In this document: positions 1 to 38,411 of the stretch, piece by piece
How the letters are laid out: every line of letters starts with the position of its first letter
Numbering within the stretch: the first letter of the stretch is position 1
NCBI GenBank assembly: GCA_025331445.1
Contig: JAIWNE010000148.1
Coordinates: 1-64,000 of the forward strand
DNA: 64,000 nt
Reading direction: 5' to 3'
Source of the DNA: Blakeslea trispora
Lineage: Eukaryota; Mucoromycota; Mucoromycetes; Mucorales; Choanephoraceae
The notes under the pieces: generated by a model
What the model was told of the DNA's origin: nothing
Databases searched by the model: none
The model's input: only the letters and a program-made list of their open reading frames with translations
Made by a program: the position numbers and the translations under genes

Positions 1-207
1 CATCGCTTTTTACCAATGCTTGTTAGATGTTTGATTTCAGGATTACCTCTGGTAATATCTGAAATGATTTTAGTTTTCCAACTTTGTGAACATTATTTGA
101 TTTATTGTTATTTTGACATTATCTGTCAAAAATAACCTTTGATGATGATTAATTGAATTTTCCGATTATAAGTCCGTTCTGGCTTCTGTATATGCCCAAA
201 TACGACA
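1..207 (+). repeat. LTR family A, 3' end (copy W, truncated by the window edge)
   Basis: This is the last 207 bp of an 887-bp repeat that recurs at 5438-6324 (minus), 17185-18071 (plus) and 44502-45560 (plus, longer variant). All copies end in ...CCCAAATACGACA, and complete copies start TGTRATATTTGCAG, so the unit has TG...CA ends and imperfect terminal inverted repeats, as an LTR should. The right flank is TTTGC, inside a Helentron gene; the left flank lies outside the window. Confidence 0.8.
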
Positions 208-1040
208 TTTTGCTTGCTCAAGAGCAGCTACAGCAGCCGGACTAAACGATCATACCCAAGGACAACAAATTCATTGCTCCTGCACCTATTTGGGCTGAAG
301 AACAAAGCGATTTGGTTGAAGAACTACGCAGACAACATTCTGTTCAGCTGGTGCCATCATTCAGGCATTTGTCAACACGCTCGCCCAACAATGATGACAT
401 CCAAGTGATTTCCTACAATGTTTGAGGGTTTAGGCCCTAATTTTAGGCAAATCACATCTGATTCTGTATTTCTTTCTTCGGATGTACTGCTGTTGAATGA
501 GACATGGACAGAATCAACCAACGAATTTGTGCTGCCTGGCTTACAGATGCTTTCTACTGTGGATCGAGAATTGGGCTCAAACCAAAAGATTGGCTCAAGA
601 AGCTATATATCTGACAGGCTCTTGGAAAGATCATCCTTAGCTCCTCAAGCTTACTCTCGTCTTTTCCAGTCAGGCACACGTACGATTAGTGTTGCTGCTG
701 TTAAAGTACAAGATACTTTGTACTGTAGTATCTATGTCTCACTCGGCCGATACTTTTTTTGTTGCTTGAAGCTTTACATTTCATTATAGAAAAAGACTAT
801 AGATATGTTGTGATTGCTGGTGACTTCAACATCGACTTCAATGTAGAATCTAGTTTAAGATCAAGCATACTGTCATTTGTGAATGATGATAGTTTGAGTA
901 GTGCCATTCCTTCATCTGTAACATGAACAACAAGATTGAAAACCAAAATTGACAACATCTTTGTCAATTGCGAAGCCAAGTCTGCTAGTACTTATGTGTC
1001 GTTCACAAGCTACCATGAACCCTTATGGCTAGTGATTTAA
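208..1040 (+). pseudogene. Helentron helicase/endonuclease, C-terminal fragment (copy 1)
   Basis: This encodes the tail of a Helitron-like protein: the very end of the helicase region followed by an apurinic-like endonuclease/exonuclease/phosphatase (EEP) domain. Visible EEP signatures are LLLNETWTES (metal-binding Glu), GDFNID (catalytic Asp/Asn) and KIDNIFVN. It is closely related to the minus-strand copy at 42519-44501. The 5' part is cut off by the LTR ending at 207. Compared with copy 2 there is an extra T at about 421 and a missing base at about 742, both causing frameshifts, so it is not translatable. A C-terminal EEP domain fused to a helicase is typical of Helentrons (Helitron2). Confidence is high for the family and nil for function. 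Confidence 0.8.
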
Positions 1041-1083
1041 CTAAGAAAAAAAAATTGACTTGAATAAATATTTTATCTTTTAT

Positions 1084-1166
1084 TGAGAACTGTTAAGCTT
1101 TAATTCTGATCTACGGCGTATAAAACGCCATGGATTTGGTGCCTCCGGTCAGCAAAAGTTTTTTTT
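1084..1166 (+). mobile_element. Helentron 3' terminus with hairpin
   Basis: Downstream of the EEP stop, about 80 bp are conserved with the other Helentron copy (42406-42490, minus). The block contains a short hairpin GGCGT-ATAAA-ACGCC at 1115-1129, and conservation stops at a T8 tract (1159-1166) in both copies. A 3' subterminal hairpin and insertion in a TT target are known Helentron traits. The exact terminus is inferred from where the homology ends. Confidence 0.6.
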
Positions 1167-1294
1167 AAATAACAATAATGATGATAACAATGCATCTACT
1201 AAGCCTTTAGATACAACTTTATATTTCTAGTTAACACTACAAGAAGCAAGCTACTCGAGCTGCGAGTCTAATTGTTTTATTTATTGAATATCTT

Positions 1295-3438
1295 CTAATC
1301 GATATTCAACGCGGAAATAAGAGGAGCGAGATCATCTTCATTGTCTTCGTTAGAGCTGATTTTGCCTCCATCTACAATATCATCGCTTTCATTAAGAATT
1401 GATTCTGATATAGAGACTTCATCGGCTGAAGGCTCGGAAGGAGCAACGAGAGAAGGAGAAGCAGAAGGAGAGAGAGGAGACGACAAAGAAGGAGTGGATG
1501 GGGGCATGCCGAGGAAGGTATGAGTTAACCTCTGCAGCAAAAGCAATTAGCGCTTTCGTCTTTCTAGTAGAAGAAGATGCTCAGGTTGAGCAGACTGGAT
1601 TCCGAGATTGACTGAGAAAAGTCTCGTCTCAACATTCTGCACAAATCGCATTTCTTCTTCCTATTATAAAGGCTTAATAAACCATAAACGATAAAAGGCT
1701 TACAAGTATAGAATGCGTACTTTCAGCAATTGTAATTCTTCTTCAGCACGACACATCTTGTGCCATGTCATGACATCTTGAGGCAAAGCTAAGGAGCTTT
1801 CCTTGGGAAACTTTTTTACAGCCGCCTCAAGACTGTCAATTCTGTGTTGCTCTTGCTGTTGTTGATCTAATTGGACATTGACATGTTACCTATATGCTCG
1901 ATTGTATATAATCGCTATAAACTTACTGCAGTTCTGCAATAAGTGCTCGTTGAAAAAAGAAATAATTTTTTTTTGCGTTTAAAGCAATATGCTTGAGAGC
2001 CAAGACAAGCTTTGTAGCTTTTTTTGCGCCTACAATGTAACCAGACAATAATGTTTAAAACTGCAAGTGATCAATATATCAAAAAAGAACGTACCAATTT
2101 TCCCGTTTCCAGATAATTGTCTTTCTTTGAAAGACAAAGCAAAAACATAGTTCTTAACAAGTATGACAAAGACGTTAGTGACTTGGGCGTTGATTTGATC
2201 GGTGAGATGAGCTATGCACTCATCCTCAAAGCTTTCGACTGGCTTGAAGTAGGATTCTCTTGATACAAAGACTTCAAAGCAAGCAGTTTCTTGTCTGAGT
2301 CTTTCGATTCGCTTCTTCGTCATGCGATCGGGATTTTGTCTAAAGAGACAGTAAATACGATGATCATATATTTGAAAGACAAAAACTTACATCTGTTGAA
2401 GATAATACATTAGCTTTTTAGCAGCTAAGTATTCCATGAAGGGCTTGCTGTTGATAATGTTCTTTTCAGTTTCTTTGTAAAGAATGTTCTTTACAAACTT
2501 TTTACTGATCTTCATGGATAACAAATCTTTGGCCTTTTGCCATTCTTCTAAAATTTTTTCGGTGTTAACACCTTCTAATTGTTTTTTGTATTTTTCAAGA
2601 TTTTTTTGGTTTTTTTCTTTTTTTGTTTTGATTTGCTTGGCTATGAAGAATTGTTAAATCTGAAATAAAAAGATGTCAGACTGTATATGTAGTAAACTTA
2701 CGCAGTTCAAGCATTTTGTTATATGTGAAATGATCCACTGCATCTGTGACCAACAGTTGTCGATTTCTCTTCGACATACTTCTGGTCATCGACACAAATC
2801 CATCTAATTAGGACCAGAAACTATCACACCCTTCACCGTCGGTATATCCAAAGTTTTGGATATATCTAGGGTTGTAATTGACTTGATAAGCCATAGTATG
2901 AGCATAAGCATGGAATGCTGTTACTCCATACCAGGTGTCATTCATCATCAAGTACGGGAATGTACGCTATCAATTAAATCAATTAAGTTATCAACGCATA
3001 GGTCAATCTAGACTCATGACTCCTTACTTCCAAATGGCTTTTCACTAAACAAATGATATCGTACATGATACCATACTTGGTTCCTTCGCTTTTTTGTTGC
3101 TTCAACATATGGCTAACGCAAGCCAAGGCATATTTATGGCTAATTGATGATGAGGTTAGAATCTAGTTAGAAAACAAACTACTTGGAACTTACCCTTCCC
3201 CACCGTAGATGCTGAGCATACGCTCAGGCACGCCATGTCTAGCACATGACAAAGAAAAAATACCGTTCTCATCGTAACGGCCTGTCGAATTGTTTCGATT
3301 GTTCTCGCCGTTGGCCTTGAAGACACTGTCTTCGACGTGATCAAGGAAACACTATATAGATCTAAGTTACAATTCAGATCAGAGCAATGATCTCAACAAC
3401 TTACATTATAACAAATTTCGGATACCTCTGGAAACATA
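1295..3438 (-). pseudogene. KDZ transposase gene, C-terminal half
   Basis: This is a multi-exon minus-strand reading with several GTAAGT-type introns. The order is a block with GRYDENGIFSLSCARHG, then YGIMYDIICLVKSHLE, then AFHAYAHTMAYQVNYNPRY and FGYTDGEGCDSFWS, which is the KDZ (Kyakuja-Dileera-Zisupton) transposase signature. A charged coiled-coil tail follows, ending in an acidic, Ser/Pro-rich C-terminus (stop at 1295). An in-frame TAA at 2808-2810, directly after DSFWS, breaks it. The N-terminal half of the same gene lies at 14843-16081 on the plus strand. The two halves are separated by a Crypton inserted at a TTATG site and by the inversion described in the findings. A related tail fragment is at 41341-42180. 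Confidence 0.8.
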
Positions 3439-3851
3439 ATGGACACCTTTTATTTTAAAATCCGATAGAGAAAATTGCTGTTATTTTAAATGTCCTCTTA
3501 AATAAAATCTGTTATTTGAAGTTTGGGACACCTACTAATAACTCTGTTTTTTAAAATAATTTAAGGTTTGCATTACTCATTAAATAGCATCTTCCACTAC
3601 CATAGCTAATGATACTGCTATAATTTCTTGTAGGAAGATTATGGGTTATATAAGCTTTGTAGTAGATCCTCTTTTGAGAGATTTTGTATACTTAATTTTG
3701 CTGCAGACTGCCAAACACTCTATTAGGTAAAGAAGCCTGATCTAGTGTAGAATGTAATTTCAAAATGAGATCAAAGGCTAATAGATAGCACAAGTACATA
3801 TGTAGATGAGTTTTGTTTATTCATATAGGTCTTCAAAAAATAGCCATGAGG
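3439..3851 (-). mobile_element. Crypton 3' non-coding end
   Basis: Between the recombinase stop (3852) and the KDZ coding sequence lie about 410 AT-rich bases with no ORF. The last bases before KDZ coding resumes read AAAAGGTGTCCA on the minus strand, and AAAAGGTGTCCA recurs near the opposite Crypton end (about 16122-16135), so this looks like a subterminal repeat. TTATG abuts both ends (3435-3439 minus; 16077-16081 plus). Confidence 0.55.
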
Positions 3852-5437
3852 CTATTCAAAAATATCATTGCAGTTTTTGCCCAAGTGACTCAAACTCTTC
3901 TTGGTTACTTGTCTTCTGTTTTCAGCTATGCGGACTGCATCTGCAACGGTTATACCATTCGAAGCTGCATAATCCTTTATGGTCTTCATGATTCTGTTTC
4001 TCCTCATGTACAACGTCTTCTGCCCATTTCTTGTGTACCATCCCTTTTGGCTGACATTCATGGTCTCAACCGATGGAAGGCCTCCTAGCCCTTCAGTCCA
4101 CTCTCTATACAACTCTTCCAAAGAGTGAAGAGTGACACTAAGAGAGAAAGAGCTGGGACTTGCTGAAGGTGTTTGCTGATCCAAGCTACTTTCAATCGTG
4201 GCCATGTCTTCTTCGGTTCTTGGTTGTGAGGAAGGCATATTTCTTACCGCTGTCTGAGGAGTTTCAGATCCTTCTGGCCAAGAGATGTTGATTTGCAGTG
4301 GGGCCCTGCCGGTAGAGATGTCGGACATGTTCAACAAAAGGCGGTTCACCAGGTGGACAACTTGCTGATTGGACTGTTGGACACTCTCTTCAATGTTTGT
4401 GAGTCTTCGTTCAACTACTGGAATGACACGTTGGAGTAGGATGTTCTCAGGATGTTCTTCTTCATGGGCTTTGAGTAGCAGCTCTCTAAAATAAGGATAT
4501 AGTTAGACTTTTTAGTTGATGCTTTCATGTCTCTAGATCAATTGACATACCGTTTGAATTCCAAGTATTCGGGATGACGGAACAAAGGATTTTTCCACAA
4601 TGAATGTGCTGGATACAGTTGCTGCATGAATACAGAATCTTGTAGAAACGTGATTCTTAATGTCATCATAAGTTGAAGAAAGCCTTCTGCGGAAACTGTT
4701 TGTCTTGCTGTACCATCATGAAGCTTTGAGAGCCAGTGACTTGCTTCAGGAAACACCATTGCCTGTAGATTTTCTGAAGGAGTGATGGTGGCGCGGGGGA
4801 GAAAGAAGGTACCTCGTTCGGTAAACCCAGCCAAGCTACGCATGATGCCACGAGGCAAGTTGGTGAGATAGGCACCATTCAATGAGCTGTTGTTCCATCT
4901 TCCCATTCTTCGAATATCTGATTCCTCAACACCTTGCATATCAGCCATTCGAGCAGCAGCACCTCGACTAACATGCGTTTTCTTTGAAGAAGTGATGTTG
5001 CATGCTTTGAATGCTTTATCGATGGCTGCACAATGACTGTGGTAGGTCCATTGCTCCTTGGGGTCAGCTTTGTGCTTCAAGAGTTGAATGTCAAACCAGT
5101 CAGAAGAGTTTTCAAAACGAGGAAAAGGCTCATTTTCAACATGGAATCTTCCAAAAAAGTAAACACCAAACATCATAAATGGACAGATTTCAACCCGAGC
5201 GTTACGAATACATGCCCCAATTTCCATTCTTCCGAATTTGTTGGTCTTGCCTTGTCTCATTACCAAAATCAAAGCAGGGCATTTTTGAGAGCCTTCGCCT
5301 TCAAGATCGAGAACCTGCAAATCAGGCAATTGGGCTTGGCGAGCAGACTCACCACGAAGGAGACAAAAGTGAGACAAAAGGAACGAAAGAGAGTTGCGCA
5401 AATCCTTGATGGTGTCTTGCTGAAAGTAATAACCAAC
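3852..5437 (-). pseudogene. Crypton tyrosine recombinase, C-terminal part, with GCR1-like DNA-binding tail
   Basis: This is the catalytic part of a Crypton-type tyrosine recombinase. Reading from 5437, LLRGESAR supplies the first catalytic Arg, HVSRGAAAR the HxxR box, GRWNNSS the W position and AYLTNLP the nucleophilic Tyr. After a short intron (about 4488-4549) a second exon (about 3852-4487) ends in a GCR1_C-like DNA-binding region (LEELYREWTEGLGG, WYTRNGQKTLYMRRNR). There is no start codon of its own. The frame opens directly at the LTR boundary and continues in phase with the N-terminal half at 16583-17184 once the LTR and one GTTGG copy are removed. No internal stop was seen, so the gene was intact when the LTR split it. 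Confidence 0.85.
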
Positions 5438-6324
5438 TGTCGTATTTGGGCATATACAGAAGCCAGAACGACTTATAATCGGAAATTCAATTAATCATCA
5501 TCAAAGGTTATTTTGACAGATAATGTCAAAATAACAATAAATCAAATAATGTTCACAAAGTTGGAAAACTAAAATCATTTCAGATATTACCAGAGGTAAT
5601 CCTGAAATCAAACATCTAACAAGCATTGGTAAAAAGCGATGATATGATATATAAAGCGTTCAATGTGCCTAGCTAACACATTGAAAGCATGATCAGATTT
5701 ATATTCATTGACTCTCTTTTCATCAATACTTGAAATGGCTATATGACATGATACATGTGATAGCAGGATGGTTGCATAGGCCTTATAATACCAAGGTAGC
5801 AGCATCTAACAAAACAAGCAATGATTCTAGAGATTTCATTATAAGAAAAGACTAAATCATTACTTGGATAAAGATAGTTCTGAGACATAATTACAAAGGG
5901 CTTGTCTATCGTTATCACCTAATCTAAACTGATCTAAACTGATCTAAACATCCAACGAAACAAGTGAACAAGTATGAAACAGTTATGCCTGATATATTGA
6001 AACACTAATCAAGATTAAACATATCTTGTCGAGCATAATTATTATCTCTCCAAGATATAAATCAAGTAAACAATATATCTCCACCTCATTCAAGGCGGGG
6101 GATAAAATCTGGCTACAGCCATCTTTCCATTAAGGTGACCAGTCATCCTAGTAGGAAAACTGCTCATACAGATAAAATTATAACGGAGTGATTGATTGAA
6201 ACCGAGATAGAAATAATATATAAACACAACATGGACTTGCAGTAGAATTAGTTCCCTCTCTTTCTTTTTAATAAAAAAATCGAGTTCCCTCTCATTGAAT
6301 CTATTTGAGACTGCAAATATTACA
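5438..6324 (-). repeat. LTR family A, complete copy X (887 bp, recombinant flanks)
   Basis: A full-length copy with TGTCGTATTTGGGC at 5438 and TACA at 6324 (minus-strand LTR: TGTAATATTTGCAG to CGACA). On the minus strand the 5' flank is CCCTC and the 3' flank is GTTGG, so its own flanks do not match as a TSD. The missing partners flank copy Y (17185-18071). It contains a 65-codon ORF identical in copy Y, which I treat as incidental. Confidence 0.85.
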
Positions 6325-6889
6325 GAGGGCTTTTAACATCTCAGTGGGTTTACCAATAACCCTCATAAGAGTGAGCTCTTGATCGAGGCACGTTTCACTA
6401 CTGCAGAGGCTCGTGATCGTGCGCTACAGATCGGTTTGACGGTTGATCAAGCCACTTTTCTAGGAACAGCTAGTTCAACAGGAGCTAGCACCAAATCTTT
6501 TGCTCATGTTGCACTGAATTTGATCCACATTCCAAAGAGCGATGAGTTGTTGGTGGGCTTAAAGGAATCGTTGAGACATTACGGCACAGTACATTAGATC
6601 CGCAAGCACACTTGTGAGGGATTCTTTGATGGCAAGATTAGTTTTGTGATTGATACGCAGACAGCCAGTCGTAATGCCGAATGTTTGAATGGCTTTCCCA
6701 TTCAGGATCTTACTCGACGATTGTATCTTAGCTACTGGGATCGCCATGCACCAACCTCGTTTCAAGGAGCTGCTCTCATCTGTTTTTATTGTCGGCAGGC
6801 AGGTCATTTCCGTCGGGATTGCCCTAAACTAAAGGATCAGGTTTGTTTTGGTTGTGGCAAAAATGGTCACACACGTCGTTTTTGTGGTC

Positions 6890-7142
6890 TGTTATAAAAC
6901 GGTCCTAATCTCTTGATTATCTTATATTTAAATATCCCTTTAACCTCCACAAGAGGTGTTCACCCAACGTATTACGAATCTCCTAATTAGGATTCCTCAA
7001 CTATTATCCCTGTAGCAATTAGACGTGTATTATAAATCCTTCTTCTCTCTCTGAAGTTTCAATAAAGCTACTAACAGTCTTAAAAAGTACTTAATAGTCT
7101 TTATTATACAACATCACATCAAAGTATACACATTACATAACA
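6890..7142 (+). repeat. Solo LTR, family B (253 bp), TSD TGGTC
   Basis: TGTTAT...ATAACA ends, flanked on both sides by TGGTC (6885-6889 and 7143-7147). A near-identical 253-bp copy is at 46799-47051 with its own TSD. The plus orientation carries AATAAAG and a downstream AAAGTACTT motif, as other LTRs here do. It interrupts LINE ORF1 just after the second CCHC knuckle. Confidence 0.9.
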
Positions 7143-7188
7143 TGGTCGCCAAAAATCGCACGGTACAGCTTCTCAATCTGATTCTGAG

Positions 7189-7740
7189 TGTTGTATCGAA
7201 CGATGTATCGAACAACACAATAGTTGACATGTAACCTCTGTCTAGACTCAGATCATAAACTACCAAATAAAGAGACGTATTACACAGTCACTTGTAACAG
7301 AGCTATAGAGTTGAGTGTCTAGCCTGACAACCAAATGTCACTGCTATCATTTCAGGATTAACAAATAGAATATCTAGACTCACAATAGTTACAAGATGTC
7401 ATATGATAATGATGGTGATATTAATATCTCAAGTCTTGTAGGACTATGAAGATGTCACTGCTTAATTATTCATGTCTCAATGCAAGAAGTCATAAAAGTT
7501 GGCCTGTTATAAATAGTTGTTCATTAGTAGATAAGATAAGGTGTAACGAAGATAGACATTGTGCATCGAAGACCAAGTCACTCGCCATCATCAATAGAAT
7601 AGTATAAATAGAGATAGATTCTTGACTAGTTAGAAAGCTCATTTAATTTACTTTGAACTTAATCCGGACAAAACAATAAAAGTTGAGTCTTAGTCGTACT
7701 TTGTCTCTTTTGTTACTGCTGAGAACCTACTTATACAACA
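7189..7740 (+). repeat. Solo LTR, family C (552 bp), TSD CTGAG
   Basis: Perfect 8-bp terminal inverted repeat TGTTGTAT/ATACAACA, flanked by CTGAG at 7184-7188 and 7741-7745. It lies in LINE ORF1, and removing it restores the frame. No second copy of this family was seen in the window. Confidence 0.88.
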
Positions 7741-8058
7741 CTGAGTTACTGGAGGAGTATCGTACTATACAAACGGAGGCGATGGAGAGGGTTGCTTCTC
7801 AATGGCAAAAGAATCCAGTTACATCCCAGAGTCATAGTGAATTTTCTGGCATTTCTACCGGTACTTCGGCTTCAAGATTCGCCCTTGATACGGTGGCGGT
7901 GGAGATGAGAGGCATTGAGAGCAGTCTTTCAGAGAATATAGGCGACCAACTTCGGGACAACGATCCTCTAGTCATTGAATTGGATTCTTTACCTGATGAT
8001 AGAGTAGATGAGCCAGAAGTGGCACCATCCCCTCTCCCACTGAAGGCCATCGGCCACA

Positions 8059-10630
8059 ATGAATAGTCACACCATACGAATAGGCTCTTTAAATGTTCGC
8101 AGCATTTTCAAAGAGTCTCAACCTGAACTGCGCAAAAACTTCATCGCTCATTTAAAATCACGTTCCTTATCTCTAGACATCCTATGCCGTCAGGATGTTC
8201 TCCCTACTCAAGCACATGCATTTACAGACACTCACCTTCATAAATTTCGCACCTACCTTTTTCCAAGATCTCACTCTCACGTTACCTGGCATACTGCCAT
8301 AATTTGTTTGAATTCAACCTTATCCATCAGGGATGCCGCATCTTATCTTGACGGTCGCTCTATCTATGCTGTCATCCAAGATGAGAGTGGTAATCAACCT
8401 TGCACTATACTTAACTTGTACATTCCTCCAGCCTACAATGAACGCTTTCTTTTTCTCGAGGAACTCCGTCGCACTGTCCCTTTCTTTTCTGACACGTATG
8501 ACGAGCCTCTCCCTTCATTTGTGTTAGGAGACTTCAACTCCAATCTGAAAGACCCTAAATTTCGCTCTCATCTCTTTGCCCAACCTTGGATAGAATGGTT
8601 AGAGGCACACTTTTTGATTGTTTTCCTGACGCAGTTCACACTTTCTTCCGTCAGTCGGATCCCACAGTTCGAAGGACAATTGACTATATGTTTTTTGATT
8701 CTCATCTACGAGCTCAGCTTCACAATCCCCAAATCCATCACATGCCACCTTACTGGACGGATCACAGCCTTCTCACGGTTGATCTTTTCCTTGGAGGGCC
8801 TCCGTGTGGTCCTGGAGCATGGCGTTTCAACCCTACGCTCCTGACCGATAAGCATTTCTGTCAACTGTTGGATCAAACTGTTATTGCATTCTTGGAACAA
8901 CAGGATCTTGCTCAATTGGGAATTGAGCTGCCACCTCCGCCTCTTCTACCTTCGACACCTCCCTTGTATGACCCGGCTCTCGCATCTAGACGACATCGGG
9001 TTTGGGAGACTTTTAAACTTCTCTTGCGTAACACAGCACAGAATTACTCCCGTCATTCAAAGACTAGAGAACGTCATACACTGTCTAGCCTGCAGGCTGA
9101 GCGCACCATACTCCTTCGACTGATAACTACTTCTGCTTCTCTTTTGAACAATTCTGCCCTTCAAATTCGCTTGGCTACAGTGGATGAGCAGATAACCGCT
9201 CTTATTGAAAAGGAAACACAACAATACCGATTGCGTACCGCGACTCGTTGGCAGGAAAAGGGCGAACGGAACAACCGGTATTTTTTCAACACCTTGCGTG
9301 CAAGAAGGGTTCAACAAACCATCCAGGCTTTACAAGACACGTCCACCGGTCGGCTTCACTCCAATATATCTAGCATGCTGCGAATTGCTCGTGTCTTCTA
9401 TGAGGATCTGTATTCTCCCGACCCAATCGATCAGACTGCGGTGGATACTCTCCTTGAGGCTGTTCCTCCCACTGTTGGGTTATCGCCTTCCGACCAGAAT
9501 TTGTTGATGGACCCTTTTACTCATGAAGACCTTCTTGCTCTCTTGAAGCGTAGTCCTTCCGGCAAAAGCCCGGGATTGGATGGCTTGCCATTCGAAGTGT
9601 ACCAATATATCCTTCCCAGACACAAGGCGGGGCTTCACTTACTTTTAGGTGTATTACAGGATGCACTTTACGGCACCTTCCCACCTTCTTGGCATTTGAC
9701 TCGTATGGTCCTCCTCTTCAAAAAGGGTGACCCGTCTTTCTTGAAGAACTGGCGACCCCTCTCCCTAATAAATGTCGATGCAAAGCTGTTTACCAAGTTG
9801 TTGGCAGATCGGTTCAATCTGATTCTGCCTGATCTGATTAATCCTTACCAAACGGGCTTTATGCCAAGGCGCCTTATTTCTGATAATGGCTGGCTCAACA
9901 ATACTCTGATGACGGCATTACGTGAATCGAATCCCACCTTACCGGCAGCAGCAGTCCTTTTGGATGCGGAAAAGGCTTATGACAGAACTCATCCGGGTTA
10001 CCTTCAGCAAGTCCTTCGGCGCTTTGGGTTCCCTACTCAACTAATCAAAAGTTTGGCAAACCTCTTCCTTGGCACACAGATTCGCATCACGGTCAATGGC
10101 TGGCTCAGTGCTCCTGTCACTCAATCTCGAGGCCTTCGGCAAGGTGATCCACTATCACCCCTTCTCTTCAATTTAGCTTATGAGCCACTCCTTCGCCACA
10201 TTCTTACCAGCCCCCACTTTCAGGGTACTCCTGTCCCTGTCCTGTCCCCTGATAAACGTCTGGCATGCAAACCGATGGCTTTTGAGCGTCGCTTAATACC
10301 AATCCCTCCGGTTCGATTACTGGCATACGCGGATGACCTTGAGGTCTTTTTGAACTCCCCAGACAAGTGGCCAGCTTTGTTGGCGGTTTTGGACCTCTAC
10401 CTCAGGGCATCGAATGCCAAAACAAATCTCTCAAAGACGGTCTTAGTTTCCCTGACGGGATCTCCCTCACCCGCTTGGTCCCAGATATGTACCGCAATGG
10501 GTATAGAATGGCATGACTCTTCGTCTTTAAATTCCGTCCGATCGTTGGGTTATCCTCTGTATTCTACACAGGCGCAACTTGACAGTTTTCTTTCAGCTTT
10601 CAAAGCGAAATTGCTAGGTATCATTCATCA
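8059..10630 (+). pseudogene. LINE ORF2: EEP endonuclease and reverse transcriptase (5' part)
   Basis: The frame begins at ATG 8059 with an APE-like endonuclease: RIGSLNVRS, LGDFNS and, after a frameshift, RRTIDYMFFDSHL and WTDHSLLTVD. The usual catalytic Glu (LQE) reads CRQD here, a conservative but unusual E-to-D change. A frameshift in a T run at about 8612-8616 moves the frame, which then stays open to 10630. Reverse transcriptase motifs follow in order: KKGDPSFLKNWRPLSLIN, LDAEKAYDRT, GLRQGDPLSPLLFN and LAYADDLEVFL (YADD at about 10326-10337). The layout (CCHC ORF1, EEP-RT ORF2) resembles L1/Tx1-like elements. ORF2 continues at 11140 after a solo LTR. Confidence 0.88.
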
Positions 10631-11139
10631 TGTGGTGATTTCACCATATGATAAATAAAAGTAGATACTGAAAATGATATCAAATAAAAGAATCATTTAT
10701 TTAAAATACGATATACAACTCAAACTAATAGAAGCTCAACATAATGTAAAGAGTGAAAGCTAATATACACATAAGACAAAGTGAGCAGTAAATGCTTACT
10801 CAGAAGAAAAAGGACAGAGAAAATTACACAAGTTCCAAATCAAGCCATCCCAGATTTAAAAGTCCTAATCCAACTGTATTCAGGAACGGTAAAAATGCAG
10901 GACAATGGTAGAACACTGGAAGAAGACCTCAACCGTCATATAAAGATTATTTCCCTTATATTTTATGAGAATAAGGATTAGTAAAATCCATTCACATTTG
11001 AGTAGACACAGACTTTAGAAATTGTATAAAAACCACTGTATTATTTAGTTTAGAAACATTATTCCACTTTCTAAGAATAAAGAGATTATTAAAGTACTTT
11101 CTTGTTTTTCCTTTATTTTCATAACCCATAATCATTACA
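10631..11139 (+). repeat. Solo LTR of the chromovirus family (509 bp), TSD CATCA
   Basis: Starts TGTGGTGATTTCACC and ends CATAATCATTACA. The flanks are CATCA at 10626-10630 and 11140-11144. It belongs to the same family as the LTRs of the element at 32725-38918, but with more differences. It is inserted in LINE ORF2, and the reading frame is continuous across it when it is removed. Confidence 0.92.
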
Positions 11140-12548
11140 CATCATCTTCGTACACGGAATCTTTCGGTCAGAGGTTTGTCAGCAGTCGTTAACACGCTGG
11201 TTTTAAGTCGGCTTTGGTTTCTTCTTCGGGTTGTGCCCCTACCAGATGAATGGCTTTCATCCATCCAGACGGCGGTGGCCACTTTGGCTCTTCCTTTTTG
11301 GCCCAAACCGAGCTGGCGAACGATCTGTCTACCTCGCCGACAAGGAGGCTTAGGTATCGTCGATATCCGCGATCAGGCATTGGCTCTTCAGATGGTCTAT
11401 CTCCGGGGCATGACGGACACTTTTGATCCCGCAGACTTCCTGACACCTTGACTTTTGCGGTTTTTTCAGCTCACCATTGGTCACGCTTCTTTCTTGCCTG
11501 CCCTCCTCTGTCCGACCATGTTCAAGCCGTTTTTTAAGAACTGCCCTTCCATGCAGCAACTCTTACGGCTGATCATTAGCCTTCCACGACCTCAGATCTC
11601 CTCCGCTTGGCCAGTCTCTTGGCTACTGGACATTCCCCTGTCGCTTGTGCTTCTCCATCACCCTCCCTTCGCTTTGCCTCCACCGGTCATTCGCAACTAT
11701 TTCTTGGTATCTGATCTTCTATGTTTCAATGAATCTTCAGCTTCTCTCACTGCTGCTCGCGCTTTCATTCGACCAACAAAACGCTCTCTGCTCCAGTTGT
11801 TTGATACAATTTTTTTGACCGACAATCACTGTCATTCAGCCTGCTCCCTACACCCGGCGGTATCAAAACTCTGCCAGTTCACTCCTCCTTCGACAACCGA
11901 TCCCATTGCTTCGCCTTTCCCTCTGTCTCTGAGTTCTCCTCTTCCTCCACTAGAGAATTGGATAATCCATTCTGATGGTCAAAGCTTGTTCCCTGTTTTA
12001 ACTGCACCACTCAAAGTCTTGCACTTATGGTGGGCAGCTTAACACTCAGTAGTCCATCGACATGTGCCCTTTCGTATTCAGTACCCCCTACTACTGCCTC
12101 AAAAATGGTGGAAGGTGTTCTGGAAACTACCTTTACCTCAGTCTGCTTTCACCCCTTGGTGGCGCCTCATTCATGCCAGTGTCGCTAATGGTGCTAAACT
12201 CTACCACTGGAAGATCCCCCGAACAACTACAGCGCTGTGTCCCATATGCCAGATATACGATGAGTCCCTCTTTCATTTCTTTGTAAGCTGCCCCTACAAG
12301 TGGGCCTATTGGGTACACATTTTGGAGATTTCCCAACTAGCAAGCCAATTCCCCACTTTTCTCTCTCTCTCTGGACTGCCTTAGTCAGCTTTGCAGACTC
12401 TCACTTCTGTCTCTTACCTGATTCTACGCTTGTAATATTGGGAAAGGGTTTGAGCGCTCTCTGGCGCTATCATTATACGTGTGTTTTTGATCAGGCTCAT
12501 TGGTACCCCGATGCTCCTGTTCAATTATTTTTGTCCACAAGTGGCTAG
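11140..12548 (+). pseudogene. LINE ORF2, C-terminal part with zinc-binding tail
   Basis: This continues the reverse transcriptase ORF in phase after the solo LTR (GIIHHLRTRNLSVRGLS across the junction). A C-terminal zf-RVT-like zinc-binding region is visible: AKLYHWKIP, CPICQIYDESLFHFFVSC. The frame carries TGA at 11449-11451, TAA at 12040-12042 and a frameshift near 12370, after which it reads to a stop at 12548. The element is dead. Confidence 0.82.
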
Positions 12549-12892
12549 TACACTCTTAACAAAAAATTGAGTGTAGCAAACCTAATGTTTTTCATCGCTG
12601 TTTAAATAAAGTATACACTTTCTACAAAAAAACGGTTCTACAAGCGGGGTAGCAATTGCCTTCCAGGTAAAAGTCAAGCCAATAACCACTTTCTATTTTA
12701 GGAATCTGTCAAAAATCAATGCATTTTATCTAGTAAAATCATTTATTTTCAAGTGTTATGCAACGAGTAGCATGCAAAACCAGCAATATGTTTGTTGAAA
12801 ATGCTGCTAAAAGTAGTTGTATATTATTGTACCTTTTTAGTGTGATATTAGAGTGAGAAAAAATAAAAATATACGTATGAAGTTGTAAATCA
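12549..12892. other. LINE 3' flank, non-coding
   Basis: 344 bp between the LINE ORF2 stop and the hAT element. Nothing coding was seen. It includes AATAAAG at about 12605 and an A7 run at about 12624, compatible with a LINE 3' UTR, and then ordinary AT-rich DNA. The TSD GTAAATCA of the hAT element occupies 12885-12892. Confidence 0.4.
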
Positions 12893-14175
12893 TAGGAATC
12901 GCAATCGGTCGGGTACGGGTCGAGTTTGACTCGACTCGACTTACAAAAAGTCGGGTTTGCCAAAAATCTAAAGTCGAGTCACCCGTCGGGTACCCGACGG
13001 GTTGAGGTATTCGGGTTTACTTTAGTGTTACTGTAGAAGTAGTATAAAGCTCGATTTTGCTTTCGATTAAAAAAAAACTCCTTTTCTTACATCACATTTA
13101 TCATTTTGGTCATTTTGGTTTTCTTTTCATTATTTACTTGCAATATCAATAATACGATGATCTTACCTTCATAAAACGCGGAACTACCGAAAATCTAACA
13201 ATCCAAACCTACAATGAAAAAGAGTAAAGGTTATGCGATTTATCACAATTGTAATCTTATTTGGAAAGTTATTTATTAAGTGATGAGCGATCAATGCTCA
13301 AATATAAAGCCAGCTACTATCAAACAATTTGTATAAAAGTTAAATGTATCAAGAGAAAATGCTAATAATAATTATGTAAGAACAAATTGCGCAGATGCCC
13401 ATGATTCAAATATTCTCACTGCTGCATCATATGTGTTAGCCTTGACTCTTGGATGTTAAACAGGCAAACTTGGTAGATTAAACAGAGGTATGGGGAAAAA
13501 TTTAAATTTAGACAATCTCAATTCAAACCTTTTGCAGATCAGGAAGACCTATTCGTTGCTGAAAATTGAAGGTGGAAAATATCCTGCTCTTTCAGCAATG
13601 GCAAAAAAATTTCTCCCTATACCAGCTACATCAACGCCTTGTGAGTGTCTTTTTTCCCGAACGAAGCGCATCACTACCATTGCAAGAGCTAAGCTTGGGG
13701 AAAAAAACAACCAAGACTTTAGTCCTGTCAAGTTACTGGTCTCAAGATATACAACACCTGCGCAAGATCTAGTTATTTTTTTCTATTTTGCAAATCGCAT
13801 AAGCCGCTTCTATACTTTGTTTAAATGCATACACAATTGTCTTATCTATCTACTATATTCACAATTGTTATTTATTTATTTTTAATTATTTGATTCTTAA
13901 TTTTCTTTTGCATTTATTTTATTTCGATCTTACTTAATAAATTCACAGCATATTTAAAAATTTACTTAACATGCTCATCTCAAACTTGAAAAAGATCCCA
14001 AGTAAATACTTCCTTATTTGAAGCTGACCCGAGTTACACGAACCCGACGGGTCATTCGGTTAGGTCGAGTCGGTTACGAGTCGGTTATATGCTTAAAAAA
14101 ACAAAGTCGAGTCGAGTCGGTTTTTTGACCCGACGGGTTTTAAGTCGAGTTGACTCGACCCGACTGCGATTCCTA
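12893..14175 (+). mobile_element. Non-autonomous hAT element, TSD GTAAATCA
   Basis: Terminal inverted repeats TAGGAATCGCA / TGCGATTCCTA are flanked by an 8-bp duplication GTAAATCA (12885-12892 and 14176-14183), the hAT hallmark. Both ends are packed with degenerate TCGGGT/GAGTCG motifs (12910-13016 and 14030-14165), which look like transposase-binding subterminal repeats. At 1283 bp with only a C-terminal coding remnant it cannot encode a full transposase (usually 600 residues or more). Confidence 0.9.
13490..13885 (+). pseudogene. hAT transposase C-terminal dimerisation domain remnant
   Basis: Only the hATC dimerisation region survives: YPALSAMAKKFLPIPATSTP and CECLFSRTKRI match the family pattern (YP.L...A...L.IPATS...ER.FS). 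The normal Glu-Arg before the Phe-Ser is changed to Glu-Cys-Leu. RNase-H-like catalytic parts are absent, so the element depended on transposase supplied elsewhere. Confidence 0.8.
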
Positions 14176-14842
14176 GTAAATCAAAGAAAAGTCCATAATC
14201 AGGCAAACTTATATCCAGCTTCTCGCGTCAAGAAACCGTCTTGATGAGATTTTTCTTTTTATATAGTGTCAGATATAATTATTGATATTTTTGACAAATT
14301 TTCAGCAGTTTTTTTTGAATAAAATGTAATGTTATAGATGTAGTTACAAAACCTAACAACAAAAGAAGTTAGAAACGATGTCAAAAAAGAATTTTTTTGT
14401 TTTTTCTTCCTTTTTTCTTATTTTTTCTTATTTTATAACGTAAGAAATTAGGGCAATTCTAACGGGCTATTTTTTATAGTATAAGACTAAGTTCTCATGA
14501 AGCAATTGTAATTTACAGTTAAGACTAAATGCTAAATTTTGGTTGTTTGATTTAAAAGCATAAAATGGTTTGATGGACTTTCACTGAACCAACTTTTATT
14601 GATTTTCTTTTAATATTATACTGATAATAAACGAAGTAAACAAGCCTTGTTAAAATCGGGAGCCTTTTTCAGGGATTATTGTATGTAAACAGTAGGATGC
14701 AGCAAATTAAGCAATTAGAATCATGCAGTGAATTCCATTATTTCAGGTTTCCAAGTCAGTCACAAGCTCAATAAATGGAAATAAAAAGCGAAAATAGTTT
14801 TACTTTTTTGACTCTTTTTCGAAAAAAACCAAACACAAAACA
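14176..14842. other. Non-coding, upstream of the KDZ gene
   Basis: About 660 bp of AT-rich DNA between the hAT element and the KDZ start codon, with homopolymer-rich stretches (14390-14440). No ORF of note. It presumably includes the KDZ 5' flank; no clear TATA box stands out. Confidence 0.4.
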
Positions 14843-16081
14843 ATGATGAAGAGATTAATGAAACGTGAAGATTACAACAAAATCAAAATTAGAAACCCTA
14901 AAAGACAAAGAATCAGTAAAACAAGTGTTAGCCAACACGAAAAGGAAAACGAGGATGATCTTGATGAAATACAACAGCGTATGATCAAGGTCCATCAACA
15001 ACAAGAAGAAGAAATGCGCTTTGAAGAAGAAAAGTTGCAACAGCAACGTATCGAAGATGAAAAGGCTTACCAGCAAAGAATGCTGCAAATTGCTGCTGGC
15101 GAAATGAATGATTTCGTGGATGACTACTCTGGGTCATTCATGGATCATGATAATTTTACTGCCCCTGAAATCAGCAGCCATGTTCAAAGCTGGGTTGAAC
15201 ATGCCAAGAAGGTGAGAGATTGGTATTTGAATTCCTTTCTTTTGCATGGTGAGCCTGATCTCTCGAAGAAGTCAGTTCACTTCGAGCCATACGATTGCTC
15301 TTGCCACCATAGAGGCGTTGTGAAAATGACTCTTTATTTCTTGAATGGTATACCAAGTAACATGAGCTGGTTGAATTCTTTCATTTCTAATGTGGTTATT
15401 ATTTTATAGCAATTCAAGAAGTAGAAGTTATGCATTGCAGCTGCAATCCCTTGTTGAAGCAGCTTTTGGAAAACCAGATGATGCCCAACAAGACCAAATC
15501 ACCTCGCTGTGCTATTTATTTTGCCTTGTTCGACTATTTGCACATCTTCAAGATGAGAGGTTATATCTCAAACCATTGCTTTGTAAATATTTGTAATGAC
15601 GTCTATCAAGGAATGCCTGGTTTGAGCTCCAGAGTAAGTCAGTACAACATGATTTAAGACAGTACTTAACAATCCACTTTCACTTTGCTTATCTAGACTG
15701 CTCTCATGACGAATGATGTGCTCAACTCAGCATACTTTCTCTACAGAAAACTTGCCCGCTATGCCCAAGACCATGTAGATTTAAGCTATGGTCTAGAGAG
15801 TATGAGCGTCTGTTCGGGATGTGAGGTAATTTTTTATGCATCACGAATATGATTGTTGCAATCATTAACATATGACAAATTTAACCGGGTGGCAACTGAA
15901 AGCTTGTCTCGATGGACGGCAACTTCCAGATGAAGAGAAGAAGAATTGCCGGCCTTAATGAAGCTGCTGAAGGAGGCTTTTTTGCTCTTTCGATTGGTGA
16001 AGAAGCTCTCTGAGGCACAAAAGAAGAAGTGGACAAATTTGCCACAGAAAAGAAAGATACTAGTGACAATGAAAGGTTATG
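14843..16081 (+). pseudogene. KDZ transposase gene, N-terminal half
   Basis: ATG at 14843 starts a basic, then Glu/Gln-rich coiled-coil leader. The zinc-binding part follows: CSCHHRGVVKMTL (exon 1, to 15347), CSCNPLLKQLL (exon 2, 15410-15633) and SVCSGCE (exon 3, 15697-15825). Exon 4 from 15903 begins VSMDGNFQMKRRR, the DGNF motif of KDZ transposases. An in-frame TGA follows GEEAL at about 16010, and the frame then runs to 16081 where the Crypton begins. The exon boundaries are my reading of GT-AG sites. The catalytic remainder is at 1295-3438 on the other strand. Confidence 0.8.
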
Positions 16082-16582
16082 TTAAAAAATTAAGCGGGGA
16101 CACTGTCCAGGTTTCCCAGCTAAAAGGTGTCCAGAATAAAATAATTGAAATCCAGATTCTTAGCATATCATTGGATATGAGCTTGAAGTGTGTTTGAATT
16201 CTTACATAAGCATTAAGAATTTATAGCATAAGCAGATCATAAATTGAACAATCTACATAGCCTTTGAACATACAGCTTGCAGCTTGCCAATTTATACAAA
16301 TTGTTAGACAGGAAGAGTATATAGTAATAGCTGGAACTTTATATAGGCAACTTTTCTATAGATTTATCGATACTCTTACCAAATATATGTCAGTTTCTCT
16401 ACAATTCTCAAGATATTGTCTAAATCTATTTACTTACAAATAATTTGAGTTCAGAATATACTAGAACAATCAATTACAAATCATACTTCATAAAAAGAAG
16501 TATATAAAGAGTCAAGCTGGACAATGGCTTTAGGAAAAGATAAATTTTACTTTGTACTTTTTATATCATTACTTCAAGAACC
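16082..16582 (+). mobile_element. Crypton 5' non-coding end
   Basis: 500 bp from the insertion site in the KDZ gene to the Crypton start codon. The first part has GGGGACACTGTCCAGG and AAAAGGTGTCC, echoing the opposite end of the element. A TTTATATCATTAC stretch at about 16560-16572 sits just upstream of the ATG. No other coding potential. Confidence 0.5.
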
Positions 16583-17184
16583 ATGCACTCATCAGAAAAT
16601 ACTGCTGCACAAAGCCATTCTGCTCGTATTCAAGCCGAGTTAGCTATGAGACAGTCCATTGATAAGACCAATCAAGACAATATCACTGCACGTCCCCAGA
16701 ATACTAAGAATGCCTATGATCCCAAGATCAAAGAATTTGAAGAGTGGTGTGACATTAAGTTTGCCCATGAGCCTGCTCAATTGCGCAACATTGTTACAGG
16801 CGAAAAAGCTCATTACTTCTTGGATGATGCTGTAAGTAATTAAAATATGTCTTGTTCGTTAGACTAATCTTTTAATGCTTTAAAGGTTGTAAACAGAACA
16901 AGCCGTAGAAAGAGAAAGAGAAATGATAGTGCCGAAGAGCTTCCATTGCCCAAGATCGGATACTCCACTTTGTGCTTGTATGGTGCCGCCATTATGCATT
17001 TGTACCGTTCGCAGCAAATGATGAAGATCAATGCAAACCCCAACCCAAGAAGTACTTTTGCTGCATTGCTTCAAAGAGTCAAAAGAGAAGAAGAGCAAAC
17101 CAAGAAGTTGAACTACGAGGATCGAGGGGTTGGCTCAATCATGGATGGCTACACCACCACTGACCAATTGGCTTCTGTTGTTGG
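16583..17184 (+). pseudogene. Crypton tyrosine recombinase, N-terminal part
   Basis: ATG at 16583; exon 1 to 16831, intron 16832-16885, exon 2 to 17184. It encodes the SAM-like core-binding part (NTKNAYDPKIKEFEEWCD) and a basic linker (SRRKRKRNDS). Exon 2 ends in GYTTTDQLASVV, cut by LTR copy Y. Joining it conceptually across the LTR to the minus-strand half at 5437 keeps the frame open through GYYFQQDT and RNSLSFLLSHF. Each half is open, so disruption is by the LTR and inversion alone. Confidence 0.85.
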
Positions 17185-18071
17185 TGTGATATTTGCAGTC
17201 TCAAATAGATTCAATGAGAGGGAACTCGATTTTTTTATTAAAAAGAAAGAGAGGGAACTAATTCTACTGCAAGTCCATGTTGTGTTTATATATTATTTCT
17301 ATCTCGGTTTCAATCAATCACTCCGTTATAATTTTATCTGTATGAGCAGTTTTCCTACTAGGATGACTGGTCACCTTAATGGAAAGATGGCTGTAGCCAG
17401 ATTTTATCCCCCGCCTTGAATAAGGTGGAGATATATTGTTTACTTGATTTATATCTTGGAGAGATAATAATTATGCTCGACAAGATATGTTTAATCTTGA
17501 TTAGTGTTTCAATATATCAGGCATAACTGTTTCATACTTGTTCACTTGTTTCGTTGGATGTTTAGATCAGTTTAGATCAGTTTAGATTAGGTGATAACGA
17601 TAGACAAGCCCTTTGTAATTATGTCTCAGAACTATCTTTATCCAAGTAATGATTTAGTCTTTTCTTATAATGAAATCTCTAGAATCATTGCTTGTTTTGT
17701 TAGATGCTGCTACCTTGGTATTATAAGGCCTATGCAACCATCCTGCTATCACATGTATCATGTCATATAGCCATTTCAAGTATTGATGAAAAGAGAGTCA
17801 ATGAATATAAATCTGATCATGCTTTCAATGTGTTAGCTAGGCACATTGAACGCTTTATATATCATATCATCGCTTTTTACCAATGCTTGTTAGATGTTTG
17901 ATTTCAGGATTACCTCTGGTAATATCTGAAATGATTTTAGTTTTCCAACTTTGTGAACATTATTTGATTTATTGTTATTTTGACATTATCTGTCAAAATA
18001 ACCTTTGATGATGATTAATTGAATTTCCGATTATAAGTCGTTCTGGCTTCTGTATATGCCCAAATACGACA
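17185..18071 (+). repeat. LTR family A, complete copy Y (887 bp, recombinant flanks)
   Basis: TGTGATATTTGCAG at 17185 to CCCAAATACGACA at 18071, the same length as copy X. The left flank is GTTGG (Crypton) and the right flank is CCCTC (LINE ORF1 on the minus strand). The matching TSD partners are found at copy X in reverse orientation, showing a reciprocal exchange between the two copies. Confidence 0.87.
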
Positions 18072-18360
18072 CCCTCAACAGACCCAATATGTGTCTGAAT
18101 GGCTTTGTATGCTTGAATATGATTGGCGAAGGTGCCTGAAGGAAATGAGAAAAGAACTGATCCTGCTGTCAAAGTCTGGTGTACGATATTGGCTGCCTTA
18201 CGATTCAACAGCTCTGTTTCATAGTCTGAGACTGAAAAATAGCTTCAGGGACATACTTGACTGTAGTGTCCTGATGTCGAGATCGTGGAGTCAAAGGGAT
18301 GCGCATCTGGTTGCCCTTCTCTGCCACTTGTGCCCAAGGGATGCCACTTGGAGCTGACAT
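18072..18360 (-). pseudogene. LINE ORF1, N-terminal part
   Basis: ATG at 18360 (minus) opens MSAPSGIPWAQVAEKGNQ. A frameshift near 18208 moves to a frame reading LNRKAANIVHQTLTAGS and ending in AIQTHIGSVEG at the CCCTC flank. The next codons of ORF1 are at 6325 on the plus strand, where GAGGG (CCCTC reversed) again abuts an LTR. This places the LINE 5' end outside the inverted segment and the rest inside it. Confidence 0.75.
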
Positions 18361-23658: not shown

Positions 23659-24845
23659 ATGAGCCAAGAATTCTACGCAACAGCCATTACCAATGAAGAG
23701 CCTGAGCTTTCAGTTAGCAACGGTAAGTGTTCAGCAGTTATTATTTTTACATGTAATAACAGTTTCTTCTGTACTTTGTAGAAATCCAAACAGACAGATC
23801 GGTTACTCGTCAACGAAACAGAAACAAGCAGCTTACTCTTGAAATATGGAATATATTCTTGAACCTTTACGTTGGTGCTGGACGTAGCTTAAGTCAAACT
23901 GCCAAAGTGATTGGCTTCTCAAAATCTACTGTATCCGGTTGGATCAAAAAAGCAAACAGCAATGATTGGAGAATGCTTGTTCCTGAGATACGTGGTAGAC
24001 CTCGAAGTGGCTTCATCCTTGACAAACATCAGCAGTTTTTGGAGACACATTTGGAGACAAGATCTGAGATTACTCTCAAAGAGATTGGCCGCTTGCTTAT
24101 CGAATCATTTCCAGAACAATTTCCAAGTGCCCCTGGTACAACCACCATCCACAATTATGTGCGATCCAAACTGCAATTTACTCTGAAAAAAGCAGAAATC
24201 TATCCAAGAAGAAGAAACAGCGAGGAGATCAGACGCAAGCGAAGAGAATTCTGCTCCAAAATCCTAATGGAGCAGGAGATTAAATACAATGAAAATTGTA
24301 TCTTTGTAGATGAAACAGGCTTTAACCTTCATATCAATCGTGCTCAAGCAAGAGCCAAAAGAGGTCAGCCTGCTCGGATCATGGTCGCCCCTTCATCAAG
24401 AGGAAGAAACGTTACCATTTTTGCGGCAATGAGCCATCGTGGTCTGGAACTTGCCGCCAATCACTACAGAATGGGGAATACTGGGGCAGCCCAATTTGAA
24501 GACTTCGTGGATCTCCTGATAAGACATATGAATACCCGAGGTCTTCAAGGGTACTATGTCATCTTTGACAATGCCCCAATTCATGGATCAGCGGCTATGA
24601 GAAAGTTAGAGGAAGCAGGCTACCATCCAATGAAGCTTCCTCCTTAGTCGCCCTTCCTCAACCCCATCGAAGAGCTCTTCTCCAAGTTGAAGAATGGAGT
24701 CACGAAGCATGAGCTCCAAAACTACGGTGAGTTGCTCTAACGAGTGACTGAATCATCAAGCCTAATAACCGCAGATGATTGCCAAGGGTGGATTAGACAC
24801 TCGGTTAGTTTTTTTGAGGCCTGTCTTCGTGAAGAAGAAATGTTA
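23659..24845 (+). pseudogene. Tc1/mariner-type transposase
   Basis: Exon 1 runs 23659-23722 (MSQEFYATAITNEEPEL), then an intron at 23723-23781 and exon 2. An HTH region (SQTAKVIGFSKSTVSGWIKK) and a second one (TLKEIGRLL) precede the DDE core: FVDETGFNLHI, VIFDNAPIHG and NPIEELFSKLK, with about 33 residues between the second Asp and the Glu. An in-frame TAG at 24645-24647, just before SPFLNPIEE (where this family usually has Tyr), and a TAA at 24738-24740 break it. Otherwise the frame is open to 24845, so inactivation looks recent. The long TIRs fit with it. Confidence 0.85.
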
Positions 24846-27068: not shown

Positions 27069-27534
27069 GGTGACACTCCGTCCACTCCAATGTCCACTCC
27101 CTTCAGACACCCCACTTTTGTTTTGTCCACTCCCTAGAGACACTCCGTCTTTTTTTAGTAATTCTCTGTTTAATCTTGATAGTATTGACCCCCCATTATT
27201 TACTTTTGAAATCCAATCTGGTAGTTTAGAGTTCACTTCTCAAAAAGGAAAAAGCATAGTAATCTAGGAGAAAGCTTTATAGAAACTAGAAAAAATTAAC
27301 ATACGCTCTTATAACTGTGAATTTTATCTATTTATTCTTGTACCGAGAGATTATCCTGATTCAATTAAAAAATAAATATAAAAGGGGATGAATAATGTAC
27401 CTTTTTTATTTCTCTTTGTTGGCTCTCAATGGTCATGTCAACTCTAAACATTAACTCAAATATTTTTTCATCAGAAAATAGACATATTTCGACACCAACT
27501 GTAAAAAAAACTTTTTCTTCCCTCTATTAACAAA

Positions 27535-28566
27535 ATGACCCAAAATATTCAAACTCATTCGACTTTCTTCAACACTATTGTAAGCAAGAAATACAGCAAC
27601 AAAAGCGAAATCTACGATGATATTCGTCGATTCGGAAAGGAATTCAACGTTGTCATGAGTATCAAGACATCCAAGCCAACAGCCATCAACTACATATGTA
27701 AGCATGGTGGCAAGAAGCGCATCAGATCCGACAGAAATGATCCCTTTAAAGATACCAAAAGCCAGAAAATGTTTTGCGGTGTTTTCATCAACTTTCGTTT
27801 TGATGCAATGATTCAGAAATGGATTGTCAGCAACTCTCAAGGTCAGCACAATCACAGTATTTCAGAAGACCCAACCAACTACAGCATCAACAGAAAAATG
27901 TCTGCTGAACTTGAAGAGAAGATTTATGGCTACTTCAAGACTGGACTGAATGCTAGCAGCGTTTATCAAAACTTGATTTCTGATAAAGTGCTCAACGTCA
28001 CTAAAAAATATTTAGAAAATCTTCAGTATCGCTACTTCAACACCCAGCGTAGTAAGATGATGTATGAATATGTCATCGGCCTACAGAACAAAGGATACGA
28101 AGTATTCTACAACGTTGACAATGACAAAAGAATCAGTGCTGTTTTCTTTGCACTTAAGTCAAACATTGAGGGTGCTAAGAATATGCTTGAAAACTTGGTC
28201 ATTGATGCTACTTACAAGATCAATGCTCACAAGTTGACATTTGTCAACATTGTTGGCACTAGTAGTGTCGAAGGCATTAAGCCTAATACCCTCGTAACTT
28301 TTGAGGTTGCTGGTGCATTTATCAGCGAAGAGGACAACACCCAGTACAAATGGGTGCTTGACTGCCTCAAAAAATCACTTGGCCTGAAGAGAACCAAGGA
28401 CCTCAGACGATTACCACCGACAATGAGCAAGCATTGAAAAATGCCATTTCCAGTGTCTTTCCTCAAACACATAACGTTTTATGTTATGTGCATATGCAAA
28501 AAAGACTTGAGGCGAAGCTAATGGAGTGTGTTGTTGAAAAAGACAAAGACCGAAGAGATAGCATTC
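27535..28566 (+). pseudogene. MULE-A transposase, part 1 (FAR1-like DNA-binding and MULE catalytic core)
   Basis: ATG 27535 starts a protein with a FAR1/WRKY-GCM1-like zinc region (YICKHGGKKRIRSD, WIVSNSQGQHNHSIS) and then the MULE core: VIDATYKINAHK (first Asp) and TITTDNEQALK (second Asp), followed by NVLCYVHMQKRLEAK. One frameshift at about 28375-28385 precedes the second Asp. Coding ends at ...DRRDSI where solo LTR V enters. It resumes in phase at 31893-31897 (CATTC) with RQEIQMRYQE, so the gene was uninterrupted before the LTR landed. Confidence 0.85.
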
Positions 28567-33231: not shown

Positions 33232-33275
33232 TTTTTTACTTTGAATCATCTGTTTATTCCTACTCTACTCCAACA

Positions 33276-38348: not shown

Positions 38349-38411
38349 GATCCTAATAGAGAATAGAGATCATGTACAACCCCAATTGTGGTTGACATTG
38401 GAGGGGGAGAA

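Follow-up and report, generated by a model that had tools for sequence, protein, structure and literature searches.

Exchanged target duplications at two opposite long terminal repeats of Blakeslea trispora suggest inversion by recombination, probably with coexisting arrangements in the sequenced DNA

In plants and primates, recombinant solo long terminal repeats (LTRs) with mismatched target duplications count as a mark of recombination between elements. The reciprocal partner of such a solo LTR is usually not at hand, whereas both partners are present at the locus described here. This locus lies in a window of 64,000 bp, positions 1-64,000 of the 69,046-bp contig C55 (JAIWNE010000148.1) in an assembly of the fungus Blakeslea trispora (GCA_025331445.1; 37.2 Mb, 285 contigs), where two LTRs in opposite orientation, X and Y, flank a 10.9-kb block. 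Among described systems, the Galileo inversions of Drosophila buzzatii have opposite copies at their breakpoints, exchanged target duplications and chimeric copies, from which ectopic recombination has been inferred (PMC2775673). X and Y resemble Galileo in their opposite orientation and exchanged target duplications, may likewise be chimeric, and lead to the same inference. Galileo, however, belongs to the DNA transposons, its duplications measure 7 bp and non-inverted chromosomes were sequenced, whereas we deal with LTRs, 5-bp duplications, a kilobase scale and relatives within the same assembly. Inversions between long inverted repeats have also been described in Candida albicans, with both orders present as alleles at CEN4; elsewhere in that genome polymerase chain reaction (PCR) failed to confirm a reference orientation, and two inversions were checked by PCR (PMC6591007). 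The locus in B. trispora likewise appears to be a fungal inversion between inverted repeats, but the Candida repeats contained open reading frames (ORFs) at eight of nine inversions, and a swap of target duplications is not mentioned in the text that the available part covers. A further article offers no closer parallel in the part available (PMC4806543), a literature search on inversions and LTR retrotransposons in Mucor or Mucorales found no paper, and nothing in the literature listings names this locus. The kind of rearrangement is already known from Galileo and from the Candida inverted repeats, and this locus is a new example of it. We consider it likely that homologous recombination between opposite LTRs took place here repeatedly, among several copies, and probably left at least two arrangements within the DNA that was sequenced.

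The two LTRs, with flanks given in LTR orientation, are placed as follows:
5438-6324, minus strand: LTR X, flanked by CCCTC and GTTGG
17185-18071, plus strand: LTR Y, flanked by GTTGG and CCCTC

We refer to positions 208-5437 as block A, 6325-17184 as block B and 18072 onwards as block C; block D is the interior of a retroelement on another contig, C225. X and Y belong to one family and stand in opposite orientation at both breakpoints. Each is 887 bp long, both ends of both read TG...CA, and in inverted alignment they are identical at 885 of 887 positions, with mismatches at LTR positions 4 and 238. The plus orientation given to Y is antisense to the element, whose gag gene is on the opposite strand. 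The 5-bp target duplications are exchanged between the two LTRs: the flanks of neither LTR match each other, yet each is matched at the other LTR. A first-pass annotation made from the DNA letters had claimed this arrangement, and its coordinates and flanks were confirmed. Among the 40 family members examined (the best 40 of 162 first-look candidates), 27 carry a perfect 5-bp duplication, which is the normal behaviour of the family; this number includes L020, for which a 2-base variant end was allowed, and a copy on C26 that was read by eye, and two of the copies, on C51, have the same flanks. The 13 others are X, Y, three copies on C225, two on C266, two on C19, solo LTRs on C176, C222 and C247, and one truncated copy at window position 44696. 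Based on the 5-mer frequencies of the window, the chance of a reciprocal 5-mer swap is about 2e-6 for one pair, and about 1.4e-4 swaps are expected among the 66 pairs that 12 non-matching copies form, but two were observed. It is scarcely credible that no inversion occurred and that the flanks of unrelated insertions match by chance or a hybrid element transposed aberrantly. X and Y do differ at two sites only, which leaves few sites from which to read chimerism, but this explanation must face the chance of about 2e-6 per pair and the contiguous relatives, described next, of every broken element. LTR elements are not known to use hybrid-end cut-and-paste, which also counts against it.

The elements broken at the junctions, and one LINE ORF inside block B, are:
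1167-3407, minus strand: 3' part of a KDZ gene, middle of block A; the CATT at 3404-3407 is common to the Crypton insertion site
3408-5437, minus strand: C-terminal half of a Crypton recombinase (NDC10_II, GCR1_C), right end of block A, ending in CCAAC
6325-6895, plus strand: distal part of ORF1 of a long interspersed nuclear element (LINE), left end of block B, beginning with GAGGG
8559-10655, plus strand: LINE reverse transcriptase ORF, inside block B
14394-16075, plus strand: 5' part of the KDZ gene; a CxC2 cluster is seen in the relative on C19
16066-17184, plus strand: N-terminal half of the Crypton recombinase, right end of block B, ending in GTTGG; C225:1-996 is a second copy of 16189-17184
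18072-18360, minus strand: proximal part of LINE ORF1, block C

The present order disrupts three unrelated elements, and one reversal would reunite all three, which is the strongest part of the finding. That reversing 6325-17184 rejoins the halves of the Crypton, the KDZ gene and LINE ORF1 had been proposed in the first-pass annotation, and these joins are indeed unbroken in relatives of each element, by which we mean other copies in the same assembly, where contigs C225, C19 and the like also belong. For the Crypton, an empty-site probe is continuous, with the five bases present once, in six of six relatives (two on C112 and one each on C21, C153, C205 and C168); in a seventh, on C54, the site is also crossed and a small deletion just beyond it removes about 25 probe bases. 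The site is unbroken, in other words, in 7/7 relatives examined, a count that excludes more distant matches (about 70-76%; C11 and a second place on C21). The Crypton halves are in phase as had been claimed (N-terminal half to 17184, C-terminal half from 5437), but the element is wider than was claimed and spans 3408-5437 together with 17184 to about 16066. The recombinase domains NDC10_II and GCR1_C were detected, a combination that we take to be a mark of fungal Cryptons. Of 34 relatives of a piece of the Crypton protein, five come from a named organism (Rhizopus delemar, one; Mucor saturninus, two; Blakeslea trispora, two), which makes an origin within Mucorales likely. In the uninverted order a direct CATT stands at both Crypton ends, and CATT occurs once in both of the empty KDZ sites printed. 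The KDZ halves abut with an 8-bp overlap in all four relatives reaching the site (C19, C221, C168 and C257). As the KDZ probe covered one side only, the evidence for this join consists of the positions of the halves in four relatives and the two printed sites. A KDZ transposase and a CxC cluster were detected in the relative on C19, and two scanned pieces of the window's own KDZ copy gave no Pfam match. LINE ORF1 is unbroken in four of five relatives (C33 and C235, 82% over the probe; C16, 74%; C214, 67%), and in the fifth, on C146, the two parts are adjacent with about 240 bp around the site missing. The LINEs on C33 and C235 are 99.96% alike over 2.76 kb and amount to nearly one witness. A reading of these two as haplotype contigs found no support, since within the 6-kb stretches compared only this 2.76-kb block is common and it starts abruptly near the LINE end, as two recent insertions would give. 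The ORF1 of one LINE relative carries a zinc knuckle. The uninverted order is thereby seen at related element copies in the same assembly and not at the locus itself. Block B also holds, at 12894-14174, a repeat with many relatives (84-96% among the matches listed) and 10-bp inverted-repeat ends, AGGAATCGCA, that were read by eye.

A second contig, C225 (237 kb), carries parts of the same locus in a different order: 16189-17184, LTR1, block A, LTR2, a 3.2-kb interior, LTR3 and the helicase part of a Helentron-like element. The features involved are:
1-207, plus strand: LTR Z, the last 207 bp of a third LTR copy; contig C55 begins inside it, with three single-base insertions relative to C225
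208-1166, plus strand: C-terminal part (endonuclease end) of the Helentron-like element, left end of block A; its other part runs from C225:12108 onwards
C225:7112-12107: 5-kb element (L031/L032), LTR2-interior-LTR3, target duplication TGTTG/TTTTG
C266:97958-102932: 5-kb element, target duplication CGAGA/CGGGA, one mismatch

In C225 the block 208-5437 is flipped between the Crypton LTR and an LTR of the 5-kb retroelement, and GTTGG is found on one side of LTR1 and on one side of LTR2. The Helentron joint, between the left end of block A and C225:12108, is unbroken in 9/9 relatives examined. Helitron_like_N and PIF1 helicase domains score above cut-off in C225, as does PIF1 in the relative on C275; the endonuclease of the C275 relative reaches 18.6 bits, below the 24.5-bit cut-off, and window positions 409-786 gave no match. 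An assignment of 208-1166 to a second LINE was dropped in favour of the Helentron-like element after the domain scan. A gag gene lies in the interior of the 5-kb element (Retrotrans_gag scores 24.9 bits against a cut-off of 24.1, and Ty3_capsid stays under its cut-off). This interior does not seem long enough to hold a full pol; in its second half the one 136-amino-acid ORF scanned gave no match. The first 2 kb of this interior occur in only one other place, C266. Since the 5-kb element consists of an interior and two LTRs, and the other part of the Helentron is the left end of block A, joined to it in nine of nine relatives, the ancestral order would be D-LTR-A-LTR-B reversed-LTR-C, with A flipped in C225 and B flipped in C55. 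No single order fits both contigs, which means either that two arrangements coexist or that one contig or both contain a misjoin at an LTR.

At near identity, block A is found on C55 and C225, the right end of B on C55 and at C225:1-996, and the left end of B and block C on C55 alone. For B these counts cover 7/7 candidates scored with the left end and 19/19 with the right end; a search with the whole 10.9-kb block scored 39 of 302 candidates, did not list the window's own copy and was not used for copy number. C55 and C225 differ at eight single bases beside the junctions: four at the right end of A (4763-5325), two at the right end of B (16241 and 16841), and LTR positions 238 (Y versus LTR1) and 856 (X versus LTR2). 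At six of the eight, one contig has a base that none of the typed relatives or LTR copies shares; the exceptions are 238 and 16841, where the T of C55 is also present in C21. These differences suggest different source molecules. Gene conversion from another Crypton found no support as the source of the C225-specific bases, which are absent from the relatives typed (seven at 4827 and 4851, six at 5325 and three at 16241). A true segmental duplication, with A and the end of B present twice in one nucleus in different orders, would account for two block A copies with private substitutions on each, but we regard it as quite improbable. The left end of B, the right end of B before 16189, and C are found once only at near identity, both copies share the same LTR insertion at the same target site, and no simple duplication that we could conceive yields both orders. 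The sequenced DNA probably contains both orders, carried by different nuclei or haplotypes.

Alignment of X with Y, which the first-pass annotation had suggested for locating the crossover, points to a putative exchange by one marker. Among the 30 of the 40 LTR copies typed at positions 4 and 238, position 238 is G only in X and the three C225 LTRs and A in Y and 25 others, while position 4, a flank-linked site, is A in X alone. This pattern is consistent with X and Y being reciprocal recombinants with an exchange within LTR positions 5-237. Because LTR1 and LTR2 of C225 both carry G, the Crypton LTR had G at 238 whichever way it recombined, and the LINE LTR would have had A.

Several observations weigh against coexisting, recombined arrangements. 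The chimera argument uses one informative site, 238, whose polarity assumes that the C225 LTR sequences are right, and the target duplication of the C225 5-kb element matches at four of five bases. The block A substitutions are confined to the 675 bp next to the Crypton LTR, with none in 208-4762; all six non-LTR substitutions lie less than 1 kb from this LTR, with none in 208-4437 (Fisher p 0.001, for a limit chosen post hoc). Two long-separated haplotypes would not predict such clustering. The first 1.05 kb of C55 shows seven single-base indels relative to C225, as expected of a contig end with thin coverage. Each contig terminates close to the conflict, and the near-identical copies found in the assembly include none of the three ancestral joints. 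An assembly artefact, in which one true arrangement was misjoined through the 887-bp LTR, is in our judgement rather unlikely. Two contigs are in conflict, C55 starts inside an LTR at an end that appears thinly covered, and C225 starts 996 bp beyond one. In fact, the outer joints of both contigs fit one order with both blocks flipped (D-LTR2-A right, A left-LTR1-B left, B right-LTR Y-C), and only one misjoin at the Crypton LTR per contig is needed. The eight single-base differences, however, stand beside joints that an artefact requires to be common, which makes separate molecules the apparent source of the junctions; the three near-identical LTRs within 12 kb that are intact in C225 suggest reads longer than the LTR. 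Even then block B is still flipped at Y, so that an LTR exchange remains, and a second swap on C19, described below, is unaffected. Homologous recombination between opposite LTR insertions, as first proposed, is still the best account of X and Y, and the unbroken relatives and the chimera marker strengthen it, but it is not the single event that had been called proven. That word is too strong when misjoining at a common LTR is possible and the C225 order is incompatible with that of C55.

The exchanged duplications, the restored joins, the unbroken relatives, the conflict between the two contigs and the second swap on C19 are direct observations, from which we infer how and in what succession the events took place and that both orders coexist. 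A young LTR family, probably of Ty3 type, would have inserted repeatedly in a transposon-rich region, with a 5-kb element entering the Helentron-like element, a solo LTR standing in the Crypton, itself in the KDZ gene, and another solo LTR in LINE ORF1. Neighbouring opposite copies may then have undergone homologous (non-allelic) crossing over. A crossover of the Crypton LTR with that of the LINE, at a point within LTR positions 5-237, would have flipped 6325-17184 and given the C55 order, and one between the Crypton LTR and an LTR of the 5-kb element would have flipped 208-5437 and given the C225 order, each order being one step from the same ancestral order. We also speculate, tentatively, that the LTRs act as inversion switches. 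Repeated mitotic recombination would then flip A and B independently of each other, several isomers would occupy different nuclei of one culture, and the private substitutions clustered next to the Crypton LTR would be a mutational trace of break repair; this is possible but doubtful.

The LTR copies relevant to a second swap, and the unmatched solo LTRs, are:
C19:65201-69077 (L021): inverted LTR pair, LTRs at 1501-2377 and 2829-3705 (C19:66701 and C19:68029), duplications ATATC/TAAAT
C176:4467, C222:28349 and C247:161950: unmatched solo LTRs with unlike flanks

The C19 pair is a second reciprocal swap, with a 451-bp spacer, and lies in the middle of its contig. With 40 of 68 candidates scored, 39 other places were listed, and four of these relatives were fetched; in all four the order is uninverted, and the flanks meet the opposite ends of the spacer with 5-bp overlaps. 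The matches listed include no second copy of the spacer at near identity, the others being 97-98% identical. Given the C19 swap, LTR-LTR inversion is likely in this genome even should the conflict between C55 and C225 be artefactual. Exact pattern searches found no reciprocal partners for the solo LTRs on C176 and C222; for that on C247 the only exact match, on C246, has its own perfect duplication and was rejected (it is a 41st copy, outside the 40).

At this locus, nested insertions of several element types put events in order and allow breakpoints to be read to the base even where no sister strain is at hand. Should the two arrangements coexist, LTR-LTR inversions in a fungus could be counted directly at this locus, and it is this possible coexistence of isomers that merits following up. 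The locus also gives a caution that alternative orders may be concealed where transposons are annotated at contig ends. Since only transposon genes were recognised among the breakpoint pieces scanned, nothing suggests a direct host effect.

Elsewhere in the window, 32727-38897 holds a Ty3-type element with a single gag-pol frame of 1724 amino acids (33174-38345, with a chromodomain) between direct repeats, and related repeats occur at 10633-11117 and, inverted, at 31952-32429. DDE_3, weak MULE and Helitron_like_N domains were found at 23760-24644, 27505-28434 and 61182-62582, respectively, and the region is dense in different transposons.

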